Assembly (NCBI GenBank): GCA_951812585.1 | Contig: OX638318.1 | Span: 1,982,380-2,046,379, forward strand | Length of the DNA: 64,000 bases | Reading direction: 5' to 3' | Source: Rhodothermales bacterium | Lineage (GTDB): Bacteria > Bacteroidota > Rhodothermia > Rhodothermales > Bin80 | Shown: positions 8,171 through 20,191 of the stretch, piece by piece | How positions within the stretch are numbered: the stretch's first letter is position 1 | Layout: each line of letters starts with the position of its first letter | Notes under the pieces: generated by a model | Databases searched by the model: none | The model's input: only the letters and a program-made list of their open reading frames with translations | Told to the model about the DNA's origin: nothing | Position numbers and translations under genes: made by a program

Positions 8171-8287
8171 GATACACTTGCATTTAGCGGTGCGGCAAAC
8201 TTCTCTAACGAATCCAGCGCGGCATTGCTCCCGAATGAGGGCCGTACTGATGTCATCGCTGCGGGTCATAGCAAGGTGCAAAAAAGG

Positions 8288-9517
8288 GGGATTATATACT
8301 TAACTGTAACTTTTCTTCGATTGGGCCGTATGAGGACTAAACCAGATCGGGGGAATCATGACAGGGCCAGGCAGATCACACCGCAAGGGACTCACACTCT
8401 TGGCGTTGGCACGGCGGTATCCGAGCGAGGAGGCCGCCCGGGAATGGTTTGAGGCCATCTTTTGGCCGGAAGGCCGCTTTTGTCCGCAGTGCAGGGGCAC
8501 CGATACCTATGCTTGCCCACAACAGACCATGCCGTACCGTTGCCGCACATGCCGCAAGCGGTTCAGTGTTCGGACGGGAACGGTGCTGCAAGCCTCACGG
8601 TTGCCATTGCTCAAGTGGACCTATGCCATTTATCTTGAAATGACCGCGCTCAAGGGCGTATCCAGCATGAAGCTTCACCGCGACCTGGGCATCACGCAAA
8701 AGTCGGCGTGGTTCATGCTGCAACGGATTCGGGAGGCGTTCGCGCCGTTAGCCGCCGCCGCGTTTGAAGGCCCGGTTGAAGCCGACGAGACGTATGGTTG
8801 GGGGCAAGGAGGCCAACAAGCACGCGCACAAGAAGCTGAAAGCGGGACGCGGAACGGTTGGCAAGACGGCGGTAGCGGGGCTGAAAGACCGCGGTACCGG
8901 CCAGATTCGGGCCACGGTCGTTGAGGACACAAGCGGCCCGACGTTGAAGCAGTTCGTGTATAACCCCACCGAAATCGGCGCAACGGTCTACACGGACGAC
9001 GCCACCGCTTACAAGGGCATGATCGGTATGGAGCATGAGACGGTCAAACACAGCGTGGGCGAATAGGTTAACGGCATGGCCCACACAAGCGGGCTGGCGT
9101 CGTTCTGGGCCACGCTGAAGCGGGCGCACCATGGCGTGTATCACAAAATGAGCGCCAAGCACTTGCAACGGTACGTGCACCAGTTTGCGCAAAAGCACAA
9201 CGTCCGGGACATGGACACGCTCGAACAAATGCAGCATGTGGTGTCCGCACGGGCAGGGCGGCGGCTTATGTACAAGGATCTGATTGCGCAATGAGATAGG
9301 GTCAAGGATACGAAGGGCGCGTTACACGCTGAGTTTGAGCGGATCGACACCACGCCCAGTCCGAATCCGCGCTATCGCGGATTGACGATACAGCAGGCGG
9401 TAAGGCAACTGGTGAAGGCCAGTCCGAAACCGAAGCAAGCGGCAGAATCGAGGGCAAGAAACGACGAGCTTCGGCACGTCTAAGCCCCAAGCAGTGTACA
9501 ATTAAGTATATAAGCCC
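8288..9517 (+). mobile_element. IS1595-family element, copy 1 (full length, inactive)
   Basis: Terminal inverted repeats of about 20 bp are visible: the left end reads GGGATTATATACTTAACTGT and the right end, reversed, GGGCTTATATACTTAATTGT. The element is about 1,230 bp. I find no matching 8-bp target duplication: the left flank is A/G-rich and the right flank is ctatttta. Its right end abuts and truncates the propeller gene at 9518. The transposase is broken by a +1 frameshift and an internal stop. Confidence 0.85.
8358..9294 (+). pseudogene. IS1595-family transposase, frameshifted, with a nonsense codon
   Basis: The N-terminal part encodes a zinc ribbon (CPQC ... YRCRTC) and a helical linker. 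The ISXO2-like catalytic domain starts at ADETY, where one extra G near 8796-8805 shifts the frame; VGGKEANKH then continues in the +1 frame. A TAG at 9064-9066 replaces the Trp codon found in the other two copies. The second catalytic region reads VYTDDATAY. The segment around the third catalytic residue reads HTSGLASFW, where relatives usually have a TNxxESFW-like motif. The shared frameshift is discussed under findings. Confidence 0.8.
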
Positions 9518-11117: not shown

Positions 11118-11438
11118 ATGCACTTAATCGAATGGACATTTCGAATCGGTATGCGGTTCGTCGGATGTTTACCTCTTCGTGCTATTAAAATCGTCAAAGG
11201 CCTGCTTGCGGCGGCCGTAGCAGCTACGAGCCTGCTCATAGTCTTGACTAGTGTCCAACCGGTGGACGCCAATCAGGAGGACGAAGACCAAGACTACGTT
11301 ATGGACGTAGAACTCTACTGTCAACCTCTCGGCGAAGAGAAGCGTTACGACTGTTACAGTGCTTGGTGCACATGGGAGGGGTCGGAATGCTCATTTATGC
11401 CGTACGAGTGTTTCGATAATGACGGGGGAATGTGCTGA
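11118..11438 (+). CDS. Small Cys-rich exported peptide (module A)
   Basis: 106 residues from the ATG at 11118, or 95 from the in-frame ATG at 11151. A strongly hydrophobic segment (GLLAAAVAATSLLIVL) acts as signal or anchor with a plausible cut after VDA. The mature part is about 54 residues, very acidic, and holds six cysteines (YCQ, DCY, WCT, ECS, ECF and the terminal MC). The stop overlaps the propeller start by one base (TGATG), so the two are translationally coupled. No Pfam family is recognised with certainty; the arrangement recalls NVEALA-type peptides of Bacteroidota, which also sit before propeller genes. Everything from 11173 on is inside the tandem duplication; the start codon lies outside it. 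Confidence 0.6.
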   Translation: MHLIEWTFRIGMRFVGCLPLRAIKIVKGLLAAAVAATSLLIVLTSVQPVDANQEDEDQDYVMDVELYCQPLGEEKRYDCYSAWCTWEGSECSFMPYECFDNDGGMC

Positions 11439-12481
11439 TGACACAGCGAGCTGTCTTTTGCGCACTCATTATCGGTGCGCTCTCCTTGAGTGCCTCCACG
11501 GCCCCTTATGCGCGGGCGCAGGCTGCTCCTCCCCTCGAGCTGAAGCACTTCACGAAGGTGAAGACGATCCGGTTCGATGATCCGGATACGCTGCTGATAG
11601 GAACCATCGACTATATGGATGTGGATCCGGCGGGACGCATACTTGTGGTCGACCAAAGAGGTAGGCAAGTCTTCTTGTTTGACTCGACTGGAGCTCTACA
11701 GGCTTCACTGGACCCGACTGCCTGTCATCCGGGCTTCACCTTTCAGCCTATTACCGCCCACTTTGGGGGCGATGCGTTCATCTTTATCCAAAACGCTAGC
11801 CCTTGGGGATATCGCTTCACAGCGGTGGGGGACTGCTTGGGTAGCGTTGATGGGGATTTTTCAGCTTATCGCTTCTTCGATATTGATCCAGTGGGCACCC
11901 CATATGGTTCCTATCCTGGAGGCTTGGCCGGAACGCGGATACTGCGACGTATGAGCCCCACCGGGAAAACCCTTAAGGAGTTTCCCATGCCGCCTTCCAA
12001 GTACCCCAATGCAACTCTGAGGGTGGCCGGCGGCGGCTTCATTGCAGATGGAGAGCACCTCTTTTACGCTTCGGCGCCAGAGCGGGACATCTTGAAGTTT
12101 TCCACGGATGGAACGCTTGCAGGCAAATTTTCGCCGCGTGGCTCGTGGTTTCGCTCCCCCCGCCGAGATCTGCCGAGCGATGCCCAGTCGACTATGAGAG
12201 TTGCCGGCAAATGGTCCTCCAACATCACGACAATTTATGGACTTTTCGAGCTTACTGATCAGGCTCTCATGGTTCAGTATAACGGCTCGGAGCGAGGGGG
12301 AGGGTACCAGGTCTTCACCAAAGAAGGCGTGTTGGTTGCTGAAGAGCTGGGCATCAAGCCGCTGGTTTTCTTCCTTCATGGCAAATACGGATTGGTCTAT
12401 CGTGTGGTTCAGCCACGCTTGGATGACCAGGGCTATCTCCCCAACCCATACCTTGAGGTCTACCAATTTGTCACGCCATAG
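11438..12481 (+). CDS. Secreted 6-bladed beta-propeller protein (module A)
   Basis: 347 residues from the ATG that overlaps the peptide stop; a GTG at 11432 is an alternative. Signal peptide (FCALIIGALSLSASTA, cut near ARA-Q). Blade motifs repeat: YMDVDPAGRILVVDQRGRQ, FLFDSTGALQASLDP, ILKFSTDGTLAGKF and VFTKEGVLVAEELG. Two cysteines (TACHPG, GDCLG) could form a disulfide. Family members are periplasmic or surface propellers without known enzymatic activity. The pairing with a Cys-rich peptide before it and a tethered thioredoxin-like protein after it is repeated elsewhere in this island. Intact here. Confidence 0.75.
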   Translation: MTQRAVFCALIIGALSLSASTAPYARAQAAPPLELKHFTKVKTIRFDDPDTLLIGTIDYMDVDPAGRILVVDQRGRQVFLFDSTGALQASLDPTACHPGFTFQPITAHFGGDAFIFIQNASPWGYRFTAVGDCLGSVDGDFSAYRFFDIDPVGTPYGSYPGGLAGTRILRRMSPTGKTLKEFPMPPSKYPNATLRVAGGGFIADGEHLFYASAPERDILKFSTDGTLAGKFSPRGSWFRSPRRDLPSDAQSTMRVAGKWSSNITTIYGLFELTDQALMVQYNGSERGGGYQVFTKEGVLVAEELGIKPLVFFLHGKYGLVYRVVQPRLDDQGYLPNPYLEVYQFVTP

Positions 12482-12489
12482 CACGAGTC

Positions 12490-13094
12490 ATGCCATCACC
12501 TGTAAAGGCTGAAGTAGCCAAGATCGTTGCACTGTCCGTGTTGCTGCTGCTGGGCGTCGGCTACCTGCTACGCATGGACAGTGGGGATTGGCTCGCGGGG
12601 GAGGGGCCCTTGTTTTGTACGATGACGCAAGTACAGTGGACTCGCTGAAGGTTGCACTTGAGGGGCATACGGCACCACTCCTTTATGCATATGACGTTGT
12701 AACAGCCCAGCGTGATAGCATCAACCGTAGTATTGACGGTGTGATCGTGCTGGTTGGGGGAGGAACCTGCATTCAGAGGCAGATGGGAGCACTGAGGAGG
12801 GCGCAGTCGCTACAGGAGGCTATCGGGGTAAATGTCCCGATTCAGGTTCTTATTATGGACGATGGCGACGCGGAAGTGATAAGAGCACAGGCTCTCCTCT
12901 TTCACAAGGCCTTGCGTCCAACATTCAAGCTGCGGTATACCAATGAGATGAGTCCCTTATCACGGATAGTTCTGTCGGAGCGGCTAGAACCGGTCCTGAT
13001 CATCAGTGACCGCACAGTTGGCAAGGTACTACACGCATCAGAACGTAGTCGGATAGTGAGCGTCGTATCGGGTCTAGTTGCGGATTCGCCTTAG
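12490..13094 (+). pseudogene. Membrane-tethered thioredoxin-like protein, frameshifted (module A)
   Basis: The ATG at 12490, 8 bp after the propeller, opens a short frame with one membrane helix (IVALSVLLLLGVGYLL). Relative to unit B one base is missing near 12580, so this frame runs into a stop near 12648; the downstream domain continues in another frame (LVLYDDASTVDSLK ... GVIVLVGGGTCIQRQ ... VLIISDRTVGKVL) to the stop at 13094. The repaired protein would be ~200 residues: an anchor plus a thioredoxin-like fold. The CxxC position reads TCIQRQ, so only one of the two cysteines remains. The fold is inferred by comparison with the module C protein, which keeps CSPC. Confidence 0.55.
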
Positions 13095-13172: not shown

Positions 13173-13436
13173 CTTCGTGCTATTAAAATCGTCAAAGGCC
13201 TGCTTGCGGCGGCCGTAGCAGCTACGAGCCTGCTCATAGTCTTGACTAGTGTCCAACCGGTGGACGCCAATCAGGAGGACGAAGACCAAGACTACGTTAT
13301 GGACGTAGAACTCTACTGTCAACCTCTCGGCGAAGAGAAGCGTTACGACTGTTACAGTGCTTGGTGCACATGGGAGGGGTCGGAATGCTCATTTATGCCG
13401 TACGAGTGTTTCGATAATGACGGGGGAATGTGCTGA
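13173..13436 (+). pseudogene. Cys-rich peptide copy without a start codon (module B)
   Basis: The coding sequence from the hydrophobic segment to the last cysteine is identical to module A. The duplication breakpoint at 13171 removed the original start, however: in frame, no ATG, GTG or TTG precedes the hydrophobic segment before an upstream TGA. A TTG at 13242 is in frame but would skip the export signal. Probably not exported, or not made, unless a rare start is used. Confidence 0.6.
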
Positions 13437-14479
13437 TGACACAGCGAGCTGTCTTTTGCGCACTCATTATCGGTGCGCTCTCCTTGAGTGCCTCCACGGC
13501 CCCTTATGCGCGGGCGCAGGCTGCTCCTCCCCTCGAGCTGAAGCACTTCACGAAGGTGAAGACGATCCGGTTCGATGATCCGGATACGCTGCTGATAGGA
13601 ACCATCGACTATATGGATGTGGATCCGGCGGGACGCATACTTGTGGTCGACCAAAGAGGTAGGCAAGTCTTCTTGTTTGACTCGACTGGAGCTCTACAGG
13701 CTTCACTGGACCCGACTGCCTGTCATCCGGGCTTCACCTTTCAGCCTATTACCGCCCACTTTGGGGGCGATGCGTTCATCTTTATCCAAAATAATAGCCC
13801 TTGGGGATTTCGCTTCACAGCGGAGGGGGACTGCTTGGGTAGCGCTGATGCGGACTATTCAGCCCATCGGGCCTTCGATATTGACCCAACGGGCACCCTC
13901 TATGGCGTCTATCCTGGTCGGCCGGACTGGCCACGGATACTGCGACGTATGAGTCCCACCGGGAAAACACTTGGGGAATTCCCAATGCCCCCCTCCAAAT
14001 ACCCCAATGCCGTTCGGAGGATGGGCGGCGGAGGCTTCATTGCAGATGGAGAGCACCTCTTTTACGCTTCGGCGCCAGAGCGGGACATCTTGAAGTTTTC
14101 CACGGATGGAACGCTTGCAGGCAAAATTTCGCCGCGTGGCTCGTGGTTTCGCTTCCCCCGCCGAGATCTGCCGAGCGATGTCCAGGGGTCTCTTAGAGAG
14201 TTTGGCAAGTGGTCCCAAAACATCACGACAATTTATGGACTTTTCGAGCTTACTGATCAGGCTCTCATGGTTCAGTATAACGGCTCGGAGCGAGGGGGAG
14301 GGTACCAGGTCTTCACCAAAGAAGGCGTGTTGGTTGCTGAAGAGCTGGGCATCAAGCCGCTGGTTTTCTTCCTTCATGGCAAATACGGATTGGTCTATCG
14401 TGTGGTTCAGCCACGCTTGGATAACCAGGATTATCTCCCTAACCCATACCTTGAGGTCTACCGTTTTTTTGCGCCATAG
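13436..14479 (+). CDS. Secreted 6-bladed beta-propeller protein (module B)
   Basis: 347 residues, same length and signal peptide as module A. It is identical over the first ~120 residues, then differs in clusters: NNSPWGFRF versus NASPWGYRF, YGVYPGRPDWPRIL versus YGSYPGGLAGTRIL, DVQGSLREFGKWSQN versus DAQSTMRVAGKWSSN, and the last residues RFFAP versus QFVTP. Between the clusters the DNA is again identical. The gene is open throughout and may be functional although its module partners are damaged. The ATG at 13436 overlaps the stop of the peptide copy by one base. Confidence 0.75.
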   Translation: MTQRAVFCALIIGALSLSASTAPYARAQAAPPLELKHFTKVKTIRFDDPDTLLIGTIDYMDVDPAGRILVVDQRGRQVFLFDSTGALQASLDPTACHPGFTFQPITAHFGGDAFIFIQNNSPWGFRFTAEGDCLGSADADYSAHRAFDIDPTGTLYGVYPGRPDWPRILRRMSPTGKTLGEFPMPPSKYPNAVRRMGGGGFIADGEHLFYASAPERDILKFSTDGTLAGKISPRGSWFRFPRRDLPSDVQGSLREFGKWSQNITTIYGLFELTDQALMVQYNGSERGGGYQVFTKEGVLVAEELGIKPLVFFLHGKYGLVYRVVQPRLDNQDYLPNPYLEVYRFFAP

Positions 14480-14487
14480 CACGAATC

Positions 14488-14601
14488 ATGCCATCACCCG
14501 TAAGGCTGAGATAGCCAAGATCATTGCACTGTCCGTGTTGCTGCTATTGGGTGTCGGCTACCTGCTACGCATGGACAGTGGAGAATTGGCTCGCGGGGAG
14601 A
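14488..14601 (+). pseudogene. Redoxin remnant, anchor part only (module B)
   Basis: Corresponds to the first ~38 codons of the module A redoxin (KIIALSVLLLLGVGYLL membrane helix). A one-base deletion near codon 6 brings a TAG at codon 9, and the thioredoxin-like domain is gone because IS copy 3 sequence follows directly. Confidence 0.7.
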
Positions 14602-14605
14602 GGGG

Positions 14606-15019
14606 CTGAAAGACCGCGGTACCGGCCAGATTCGGGCCACGGTCGTTGAGGACACAAGCGGCCCGACGTTGAAGCAGTTCGTGTATAACCCCACCGAAAT
14701 CGGCGCAACGGTCTACACGGACAACGCCACCGCTTACAAGGGCATGATCGGTAGGGAGCATGAGACGGCCAAACCCAGCGTGGGCGAATGGGTCAACGGC
14801 ATGGCCCACACAAGCGGGCTGGCGTCGTTCTGGGCCACGCTGAAGCGGGCGTACCATGGCGTGTACCACAAAATGATCGCCAAGCACTTGCAACGGTACG
14901 TGCAGCAGTTTGCGCAAAAGCACAACGTCCGGGACATGGACACGCTCGAACAAATGCAGCATGTGGTGTCCGCACGGGCAGGGCGGCGGCTTATGTACAA
15001 GGATCTGATTGCGCAATGA
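14606..15019 (+). pseudogene. IS1595-family transposase, 5'-truncated
   Basis: Uninterrupted from LKDRGTGQIRATVV to the end (RRLMYKDLIAQ). It contains the second catalytic region (VYTDNATAY) and HTSGLASFWATLKR but lacks the zinc ribbon and the first catalytic Asp. Unlike copy 1 it has a Trp codon at the GEWVNG position, and unlike copy 2 it has no late frameshift, so it preserves the best C-terminal sequence of the three. Confidence 0.8.
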
Positions 15020-15207
15020 GAAGGGTCAAGGATACGAAGGGCGCGTTGCACGCTGAGTTTGAGCGGATCGACACCACGCCCAGTCCGAATCCGCGCTATC
15101 GCGGATTGACGATCCAGCAGGCGGTAAGGCAACTGGTGAAGGCCAGTCCGAAACCGAAGCAAGCGGCAGAATCGAGGGCAAGAAACGACGAGCTTCGGCA
15201 CGTCTAA
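15016..15207 (+). CDS. Small accessory ORF of the IS1595 element (63 aa)
   Basis: Starts at an ATGA overlap with the transposase stop and encodes 63 polar, basic residues (ALHAEFERIDTTPSPNPRY, then AVRQLVKASPKPKQ). In copies 1 and 2 the same codons persist, but one extra T at the overlap puts them in frame behind the transposase TGA without a start. Many IS1595-type elements carry a short passenger here; its role is unknown. Whether it is translated is uncertain. Confidence 0.45.
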   Translation: MRRVKDTKGALHAEFERIDTTPSPNPRYRGLTIQQAVRQLVKASPKPKQAAESRARNDELRHV

Positions 15208-15241
15208 GCCCCAAGCAGTGTACAGTTAAGTATATAATCCC

Positions 15242-18474: not shown

Positions 18475-18486
18475 AGCAATAAAAGA

Positions 18487-19733
18487 GGATTTATATACTT
18501 AACTGTAACTTTTCTCTGATTGGGCCATATGAAGAATTTGGGTCATATGAAGAATAAACCAGATCGGGGGAATCATGACAGGGCCAGGCAGATCACACCG
18601 CAAGGGACTCACACTCTTGGCGTTGGCACGGCGGTATCCGAGCGAGGAAGCCGCCCGGGAATGGTTTGAGGCCATCTATTGGCCGGAAGGCCGCTTTTGC
18701 CCGCAATGCAGGGGCACCGATACCTATGCTTGCCCGAAACAGACCATGCCGTACCGTTGCCGCACATGCCGCAAGCGGTTCAGTGTTCGGACGGGCACGG
18801 TGCTGCAAGCCTCCCGGTTGCCATTGCTCCAGTGGACCTACGCCATTTATCTTGAAATGACCGCGCTCAAGGGCGTATCCAGCATGAAGCTTCACCGCGA
18901 CCTGGGCATCACGCAAAAGTCGGCGTGGTTCATGCTGCAACGGATTCGGGAGGCGTTCGCGCCGTTAGCCGCCGCCGCGTTTGAAGGCCCGGTTGAAGCC
19001 GACGAGACGTATGGTTGGGGGCAAGGAGGCCAACAAGCACGCGCACAAGAAGCTGAAAGCGGGACGCGGAACGGTTGGCAAGACGGCGGTAGCGGGGCTG
19101 AAAGACCGCGGTACCGGCCAGATTCGGGCCACGGTCGTTGAGGACACAAGCGGCCCGACGTTGAAGCAGTTCGTGTATAACCCCACCGAAATCGGCGCAA
19201 CGGTCTACACGGACGACGCCACCGCTTACAAGGGCATGATCGGTATGGAGCATGAGACGGTCAAGCACAGCGTGGGCGAATGGGTCAACGGCATGGCCCA
19301 CACAAGCGGGCTGGCGTCGTTCTGGGCCACGCTGAAGCGGGCGTACCATGGTGTGTACCACAAAATGAGCGCCAAGCACTTGCAACGGTACGTGCAGCAG
19401 TTGCGCAAAAGCACAACGTCCGGGACATGGACACGCTCGAACAAATGCAGCATGTGGTGTCCGCACGGGCAGGGCGGCGGCTTATGTACAAGGATCTGAT
19501 TGCGCAATGAGATAGGGTCAAGGATACGAAGGGCGCGTTGCACGCTGAGTTTGAGCGGATCGACCACACGCCCAGTCCGAATCCGCGCTATCGCGGATTG
19601 ACGATCCAGCAGGCGGTAAGGCAACTGGAGAAGGCCAGTCCGAAACCGAAGCAAGCGGCAGCTTCGAGGGCAAGAAACGACGAGCTTCGGCTCGTCTAAG
19701 CCCCAAGCAGTGTACAGTTAAGTATACAAGCCC
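18487..19733 (+). mobile_element. IS1595-family element, copy 2 (full length, inactive)
   Basis: About 1,247 bp with inverted repeats (left GGATTTATATACTTAACTGT; right, reversed, GGGCTTGTATACTTAACTGT). It is 17 bp longer than copy 1 because of an 18-bp tandem duplication near the left end (catatgaagaa repeated around 18527-18552) and a one-base deletion near 19401. Its right end abuts the eight-base T-tract of the tRNA-fMet terminator. The flanks ataaaaga and aaaaaaaa are both A-rich but not an exact duplication. Confidence 0.85.
18575..19510 (+). pseudogene. IS1595-family transposase, two frameshifts
   Basis: Nearly identical to copy 1, including the extra G after ADETY (near 19013-19022). 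It keeps the Trp codon that is a stop in copy 1, but one T is missing in the QQFAQKHN coding stretch near 19401, so the C-terminus shifts again before the normal end at 19510. Confidence 0.8.
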
Positions 19734-19762
19734 AAAAAAAAGGCCGCAGCAGCGCTGCGGCC
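19734..19762 (-). terminator. Rho-independent terminator of the tRNA-fMet gene
   Basis: On the minus strand GGCCGCAGC and GCTGCGGCC pair in a 9-bp GC-rich stem with a 3-nt loop, followed by eight T residues. It starts 7 bp after the encoded CCA end. IS copy 2 begins right behind the T-tract. Confidence 0.9.
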
Positions 19763-19769
19763 CTTTTAC

Positions 19770-20149
19770 TGGTGGCGGGGGCGGGATTTGAACCCGCGAC
19801 CTCCGGGTTATGCACACCACTACAGTTTTCACTGCCGGCAAAGCGCCGTTTGTGGTCCGGACTTTCTCTTCACCCTCGGCCAAGCCGTTAGGGTGCCTGC
19901 CGTCAAGTCTCTACACCTTCCTCAGCATAAAGCCAAGGCTTGGCTCGGGATTACCCCGCCAAAGGCTTCCCCGATTTTGACAGGTGTTCACGTGAGAGTT
20001 TCCTCCACACGCAGCCCGTCGCAGACTGCAGGACACGAAAGCGTCGGCGGTTATACCTTCGTGCGTCATGCGCCCGCTGCTCTTACAGTGGACGCGGTTC
20101 CTGCGCTGCAGCTTGAGCCCGGTGAGCTACCGGCCTGCTCCACCCCGCG
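19770..20149 (-). tRNA. Initiator tRNA-fMet(CAU) interrupted by a group I intron
   Basis: The 5' exon (20149-20116) begins CGCGGGG and the 3' exon (19812-19770) ends in an encoded CCA. All arms fold: acceptor stem with the initiator-specific unpaired 1-72 position (C1/C72), D arm GAGC/GCTC, anticodon stem CCGGG/CCCGG with the three G-C pairs of initiators, and T arm GCGGG TTCAAAT CCCGC. After removing the insert the anticodon loop is CTCATAA, anticodon CAU. The exon junction lies between U33 and C34. Confidence 0.93.
19813..20115 (-). ncRNA. Group I intron (IC3-like) in tRNA-fMet
   Basis: 303 nt, no ORF. The upstream exon ends in U and the intron ends in G, as splicing requires. The conserved core is recognisable: R element GAGACTTGACGGCAGG (within 19891-19916), P8 hairpin CACCCT/AGGGTG, S element AAGAGAAAGTCC (within 19859-19875), and P/Q elements AATCGGGGAAGCC and AATCCCGAGCC. 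The R-P8-S block closely resembles that of cyanobacterial tRNA introns of subgroup IC3, one of which is known from tRNA-fMet. Self-splicing is likely but unproven. Confidence 0.88.
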
Positions 20150-20161
20150 AAGTACGCCCCC

Positions 20162-20191
20162 AATATAAGGAAATTTCCAAACGAATCGCAA
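20162..20191 (-). promoter_or_regulatory. Promoter of the tRNA-fMet gene
   Basis: On the minus strand TTGCGA (20191-20186), an 18-bp spacer and TATATT (20167-20162) form a sigma-70-like promoter, with the -10 box ending 12 bp before the tRNA 5' end. The spacer holds the perfect palindrome GGAAATTTCC (20169-20178). Confidence 0.6.

Follow-up and report, generated by a model that had tools for sequence, protein, structure and literature searches.

An endonuclease-free group I intron splits the visible initiator tRNA gene in a family of Rhodothermales

Group I introns in the gene of the initiator transfer RNA (tRNA-fMet) and the endonuclease I-SspI are known from cyanobacteria, e.g. Synechocystis PCC 6803 (Biniszkiewicz 1994; Bonocora and Shub 2001; cited in PMC3073962 and PMC8450103). 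The tRNAscan-SE 2.0 paper (PMC8450103) counts 36 bacterial genomes with group I introns in an fMet or Ile2 gene, and introns of tRNA-Arg(TCT) and tRNA-Leu(TAA) have been reported in Beggiatoa and Thiomargarita (PMC4853749). Here we describe a split tRNA-fMet gene in a 64,000-nucleotide (nt) stretch of the genome of a Rhodothermales bacterium (contig OX638318.1, positions 1,982,380–2,046,379; hereafter, the window). Its insert shares with the cyanobacterial fMet intron the host gene, the group I ribozyme and the insertion in the anticodon loop; it differs in its Rhodothermales host, in having no endonuclease, in being fixed in nearly the whole Rhodothermales family that contains the window genome (hereafter, f1) and in the introns of tRNA-Lys and tRNA-Arg that stand alongside it. 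Given these cyanobacterial precedents, the f1 intron joins a known kind and is unusual in its extent. PMC8450103 names Gloeobacter and Synechocystis for fMet in its main text; its passages on such genes mention neither f1 nor the Lys intron. We hold with high confidence that this is a genuine initiator tRNA gene with an endonuclease-free, presumably self-splicing group I intron at U33/C34, which was probably acquired laterally by an ancestor of f1 and inherited vertically since.

The tRNA-fMet gene lies on the minus strand (20149–19770) and carries one insert, directly after U33. The 5′ exon (20116–20149, 34 nt) runs from C1 to U33, the intron occupies 19813–20115 (303 nt), and the 3′ exon (19812–19770, 43 nt) runs from C34 of the CAU anticodon to an encoded CCA. 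Joined, the two exons make a 77-nt tRNA that ARAGORN recognizes as Met(CAT). They bear the marks of an initiator: a C1/C72 mismatch, an A11-U24 pair and a GGG/CCC anticodon stem with three G-C pairs. The initiator identity that a first-pass annotation of the window had assigned is therefore borne out, its 303-nt insertion between U33 and C34 in a gene with encoded CCA is exact to the base, and the exon does end in U and the intron in G. At default settings ARAGORN does not report the split fMet gene; with introns allowed, it places the boundaries correctly and misreads the anticodon as Leu(CAA). Since default runs miss split genes, f1-type genomes look as if they had no initiator or lysine tRNA, which appears to be the same cause of a seemingly missing initiator tRNA as in the 36 genomes of PMC8450103.

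The covariance model RF00028, the single group I intron family that Rfam 15 returned, matches 20034–19837 over its whole length with 62.3 bits (cut-off 50 bits, E = 2e-13). The IC3 subclass named by the first-pass annotation is a candidate assignment within that family; the core may resemble that of Azoarcus. Helices P1 to P9 were named on the window sequence, and their pairs were counted across 44 homologous fMet introns, drawn from several phyla and aligned with MAFFT. Standard pairs occupy 94.2% of the pair cells, and 403 cells are changed on both sides; the corresponding values are 81.7% and 118 in shuffles, which do not respect relatedness, and 32–43% and 49–90 in slid controls, in which the 3′ partner was shifted and which overstate the contrast because the sequence used to draw the fold is itself part of the alignment. 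Two-sided changes are present in 38 of the 64 pairs. Such changes across phyla are hard to explain without the fold. The insert is a group I intron with a P3–P9 core that includes the P3/P7 pseudoknot, and the R, S, P and Q core blocks that the first-pass annotation had named correspond to a model match above cut-off and to helices supported by covariation.

All elements of the fold are read on the minus strand. P1 pairs the exon end GGCU plus the first intron base, C (20115–20119), with the internal guide sequence GGGCU (20013–20017), and U33 is the splice-site U of a U-G pair kept in 44 of 44 introns. P2 (19991–20011) is a hairpin with a GAAA loop, in whose outer stem all four pairs covary. 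Pair counts further delineate P3 (5′ strand 19979–19984, 3′ strand 19896–19901), the block of P4, P5, P6 and P6a (19915–19974), P8 (19871–19895), the 3′ strand of P7 (19859–19863) and P9 with its P9a and P9b hairpins (19816–19856). The 5′ strand of P7 (19906–19911), the predicted guanosine binding site, is invariant in the 44 sequences. The intron ends in a terminal G (omega G, 19813), which is invariant before CATAACCCG in the alignment, partly by construction, as the extraction rule required a G.

The genome of the window is a single contig of 3,198,349 bases. A spliced fMet query matches at high identity only the two halves of the split gene in a DNA similarity search of the whole genome. 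Of the 39 intact tRNAs, two have a CAU anticodon and resemble elongator Met and Ile2, and a pattern search for an intact fMet anticodon arm with up to three mismatches finds none in this genome. The split gene is thus the only visible initiator tRNA in 3.2 Mb. The suggestion that it might be the sole copy holds by DNA similarity, tRNA model and pattern alike, for a visible sequence that comes without ribosomal RNA (rRNA) operons.

The same state characterizes the family. Split fMet genes occur in 15 of the 16 f1 genomes and in one of the 98 other genomes of the order. An intact fMet arm (up to three mismatches) has no credible match in f1, where the search gives one three-mismatch match in the congener G001; it is matched in 42 of 43 other sampled genomes of the order. 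Among 396 genomes drawn from the phylum, ten have the split pattern, nine of them from f1. Within the order, G075 has a 669-nt, endonuclease-bearing fMet intron, whose start and length are those of the intron in L160.

Besides the fMet intron, the genome has two further matches to RF00028, both in tRNA genes. In stretch L002 (G000:C1:1497000-1500218, positions 1476–1766), a tRNA-Arg(UCU) gene is interrupted after U36; its intron has 214 nt and scores 56.0 bits. In stretch L003 (G000:C1:2386230-2389527, minus strand, positions 1422–1822), a tRNA-Lys(UUU) gene carries, between U34 and U35, an insert of 327 nt that scores 33.3 bits, below the cut-off. ARAGORN reads the spliced exons as Arg(TCT) and Lys(TTT) tRNAs; the Lys gene has no encoded CCA, and the triplet was added for this run. 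Neither a second tRNA-Lys nor a further tRNA with a UCU anticodon was found in the genome. The Lys intron core is present in 16 of 16 f1 genomes and in 0 of the 98 others; an intact Lys arm (up to two mismatches) is found in none of the f1 genomes and in 27 of 43 other genomes. The first-pass annotation had rated a tRNA-fMet group I intron in such a chromosome a notable case: its presence in Rhodothermales stands, its isolation does not, as two more essential tRNAs are split likewise.

In ten genomes, the Lys intron can form P1 (with the U-G pair), P2, P3, P4, P5, P7, P8 and P9b, with 99% of the cells paired. Its core pairs are mostly invariant, and covariation is confined to P2 and one P9b pair, so its assignment to group I rests more on the model match and the fold; the Lys intron of L080 matches the model with E = 8.6e-7 in a 471-base stretch. 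We regard it as a divergent group I intron. The open-access literature yielded no description of a bacterial tRNA-Lys(UUU) with a group I intron, nor of a family-wide set of fMet, Lys and Arg introns. The “group I introns” of 22–49 nt described in cyanobacterial tRNAs (PMC5733544) were considered as a precedent for Lys and set aside, since their size makes a group I ribozyme unlikely. The Arg intron shares its host tRNA with the introns of PMC4853749, which belong to Gammaproteobacteria; fMet and Lys introns are not reported there. The Arg intron also occurs in two genomes from another family of Rhodothermales (L055, L058). The idea that the Arg, Lys and fMet introns are copies of one another was rejected: in the tree of intron cores, Arg introns form a starred clade of their own apart from the fMet introns, and the core alignment offered no anchor for the Lys introns.

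Group I introns are also seen in apparent tRNA-Ile(CAU) (L034) and tRNA-Leu(UAA) genes (L043, L048–L050) of other Rhodothermales families. They are likewise small group I introns of the anticodon loop, but with other host tRNAs and sites. RF00028 also matches at five loci elsewhere in the order (L054, L056, L057, L081, L089), at which ARAGORN gives no split tRNA.

The distribution of the fMet intron extends well beyond the order. One genome each of 84,980 species was searched with a pattern for the fMet 5′ half without a normal anticodon following, a pattern that misses introns with T as their third base. It matched 105 stretches, and an intron was counted only if both tRNA halves were found with an insert of at least 150 nt. 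In total, 76 distinct inserts, those of f1 included, were recovered. By record name their sources are Omnitrophota, Nitrospirota, Actinomycetota, Desulfobacterota-type bacteria, Bacteroidota, Cyanobacteriota, Chlamydiota, Melainabacteria, Elusimicrobiota, Eremiobacterota, Armatimonadota and Uhrbacteria. fMet genes split at the same site thus occur in about twelve phylum-level groups, of which single names may reflect misbinning because many sources are metagenome-assembled genomes (MAGs). Spread or persistence of the tRNA intron, as proposed at first, is seen on this scale, but the f1 host is not an isolated case of it.

The inserts fall into two main length classes, about 204–370 nt without and 602–713 nt with an open frame of 145–190 residues. 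Frames of the long introns (L160, L125, L133, L164, L170, L172 and others) are 52–77% identical across phyla in blastp comparisons with L133 and L160. Two that were tested match Pfam PDDEXK_5 (PF11645), and the L133 frame matches the I-SspI-type structure entry 2OST with E = 2e-64. Full-length cyanobacterial members carry a PD-(D/E)XK endonuclease in P1, and it is such an endonuclease that the long homologues encode here. PF11645 has no match in the window genome or in any f1 genome, and the 303-nt intron is without such a frame. Endonuclease-free fMet introns occur in most host groups, so the endonuclease is not a required feature of this ribozyme family. Endonuclease queries do give tblastn matches in short introns (E = 4e-9 for the window intron), and these were considered as remnants. 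They fall on the ribozyme core, which the endonuclease frame overlaps in the long introns, and are for this reason not read as endonuclease remains.

Several other loci came up in the same search. L136, from a Desulfatirhabdium MAG, has a 952-nt fMet intron whose endonuclease is not of the I-SspI type but LAGLIDADG_2. Pattern matches in Marinobacter, Saccharospirillum and similar genomes were rejected as introns, as they are fragments resembling the 5′ half that lie before intact fMet genes; such a 5′ half is possibly a tRNA-derived element. In L113, L127, L139, L149 and L159, a near-perfect fMet 5′ half is followed by a C-rich stretch, with an intact fMet gene about 130 nt further on, and in L101, L119, L144 and L167 a 5′ half has no 3′ half found nearby. 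L124, L120 and L130, also rejected as introns, are fMet-like genes whose anticodon loops read CACAACCCG, CAGAACCCG and CACTAACCCG instead of CATAACCCG. The altered loops could be real or sequencing errors; that of L124 would give a CAC anticodon.

The same-site introns, that of the window included, align with the cyanobacterial ones throughout the core. In the approximately unbiased (AU) test, neither f1 fMet introns as one clade (p-AU 0.26) nor all fMet introns as one clade (p-AU 0.35) are rejected, and uniting f1 with the fMet introns of other Bacteroidota is rejected by a narrow margin (p-AU 0.049). A single cyanobacterial clade of fMet introns is not rejected either (p-AU 0.089), and lateral transfer is therefore not proved by this tree on its own. 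Omnitrophota introns cluster, and the other same-site intron of the order, which bears an endonuclease, groups with an Armatimonadota intron and not with f1.

The split fMet gene looks like a transcription unit of its own because it is flanked by a promoter-like site upstream and by a hairpin with eight T after the CCA. The promoter-like site (TTGCGA-18-TATATT, 20162–20191, minus strand) lies 12 bases upstream of the tRNA and was identified by consensus only, which it matches at 9 of 12 positions (0.2 such matches expected by chance in the region). The terminator-like element (19734–19762, minus strand) follows the CCA directly and consists of a 9-bp hairpin, GGCCGCAGC-GCT-GCTGCGGCC, and eight T. 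A terminator scan scored this hairpin on the plus strand; the run of eight T was read from the minus-strand sequence.

The two-step splicing reaction of group I introns is an established mechanism. In the window, the fMet pre-tRNA would be transcribed as its own unit and its intron would fold into P1–P9. With guanosine bound at P7, the RNA would be cut after U33, which is paired as U-G with the guide in P1, and the joining of U33 to C34 would yield the mature tRNA-fMet. Because the split gene is the only visible initiator tRNA, initiation would depend on the fMet ribozyme, and the decoding of lysine and AGA codons would rest on the two sister introns. The window intron belongs to a family of fMet introns that crosses phyla; an I-SspI-like homing endonuclease is encoded in its full-length members. 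The f1 ancestor probably gained the intron laterally, with the endonuclease lost or never present, and the intact fMet copies would have been lost in that ancestor, leaving an intron that is now vertically inherited. Patchy occurrence, the similarity of endonucleases across phyla and the identical target site favour this course of lateral homing followed, in f1, by endonuclease loss, fixation and vertical inheritance.

Some observations weigh against this account. The 16S rRNA gene is not visible in the genome, and tRNA-Ile(GAU) and tRNA-Ala(UGC), usual in the rRNA operon, are absent from its tRNA list; with these operons unseen, a second fMet copy in such a stretch is conceivable. P10, the pairing of the bases before the guide with the 3′ exon, is weak in the window, where the triplet is ACG instead of AUG, with one mismatch; all three P10 pairs are possible in 20 of the 44 fMet introns. 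The congener G001 has the Lys and Arg introns but lacks a split fMet gene as well as a credible intact one, which is probably due to a draft gap. Finally, the intron core tree is poorly resolved, the core being short. The hidden copy and the weakened P10 are also what could be said for a dead pseudogene, i.e. a silent fMet copy with a decayed intron and an intact fMet gene elsewhere. Such a gene would hardly have exons that form a complete tRNA, core helices all kept by compensating changes, and a promoter-like site and terminator-like hairpin of its own, and no intact copy is seen here or in the 14 other f1 genomes with a split gene; we consider a pseudogene very improbable. Removal of the insert by protein splicing machinery of the archaeal type, and not by its own catalysis, is less credible still for 303 nt that hold a full group I core with the conserved splice-site U-G pair, P7 and terminal G; the analysis turned up no observation in its favour.

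The remaining alternative concerns age. An old intron, vertically inherited from a common bacterial ancestor and retained in scattered lineages, would accord with the poor resolution of the tree, in which a cyanobacterial clade is not rejected, and with the Omnitrophota cluster. It would demand many losses, given one split fMet gene in the 98 other genomes of the order, and it fits poorly with I-SspI-like endonucleases that are 52–77% identical between phyla and with an endonuclease-bearing intron of the same order and site that groups with Armatimonadota. We therefore think an ancient origin unlikely, and favour lateral gain by the f1 ancestor.

If the fMet intron is spliced in the cell as proposed, then f1 would seem to depend on self-splicing RNA for translation initiation and for reading lysine and AGA codons, with no intact back-up visible. 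Known chiefly from cyanobacteria, the fMet intron crosses phyla, and its members form a natural series that leads from mobile introns to fixed ones. Because splicing uses guanosine, gating by the level of guanosine triphosphate (GTP) is conceivable. A regulatory layer in which GTP level or RNA folding jointly gates initiation and the decoding of lysine and AGA, with three core tRNAs under obligate splicing family-wide and the divergent tRNA-Lys(UUU) intron at a previously undescribed site, seems to us unlikely as a whole.

The surroundings of the gene are repetitive. A transposase-like element is present in the window in three copies that are 96–97% identical, one of them partial (8278–9517, 14596–15241 and 18476–19733), and the copy at 18476–19733 adjoins the fMet terminator. 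A 1.3-kb duplication, 93% identical, occupies 11302–12607 and 13300–14606.
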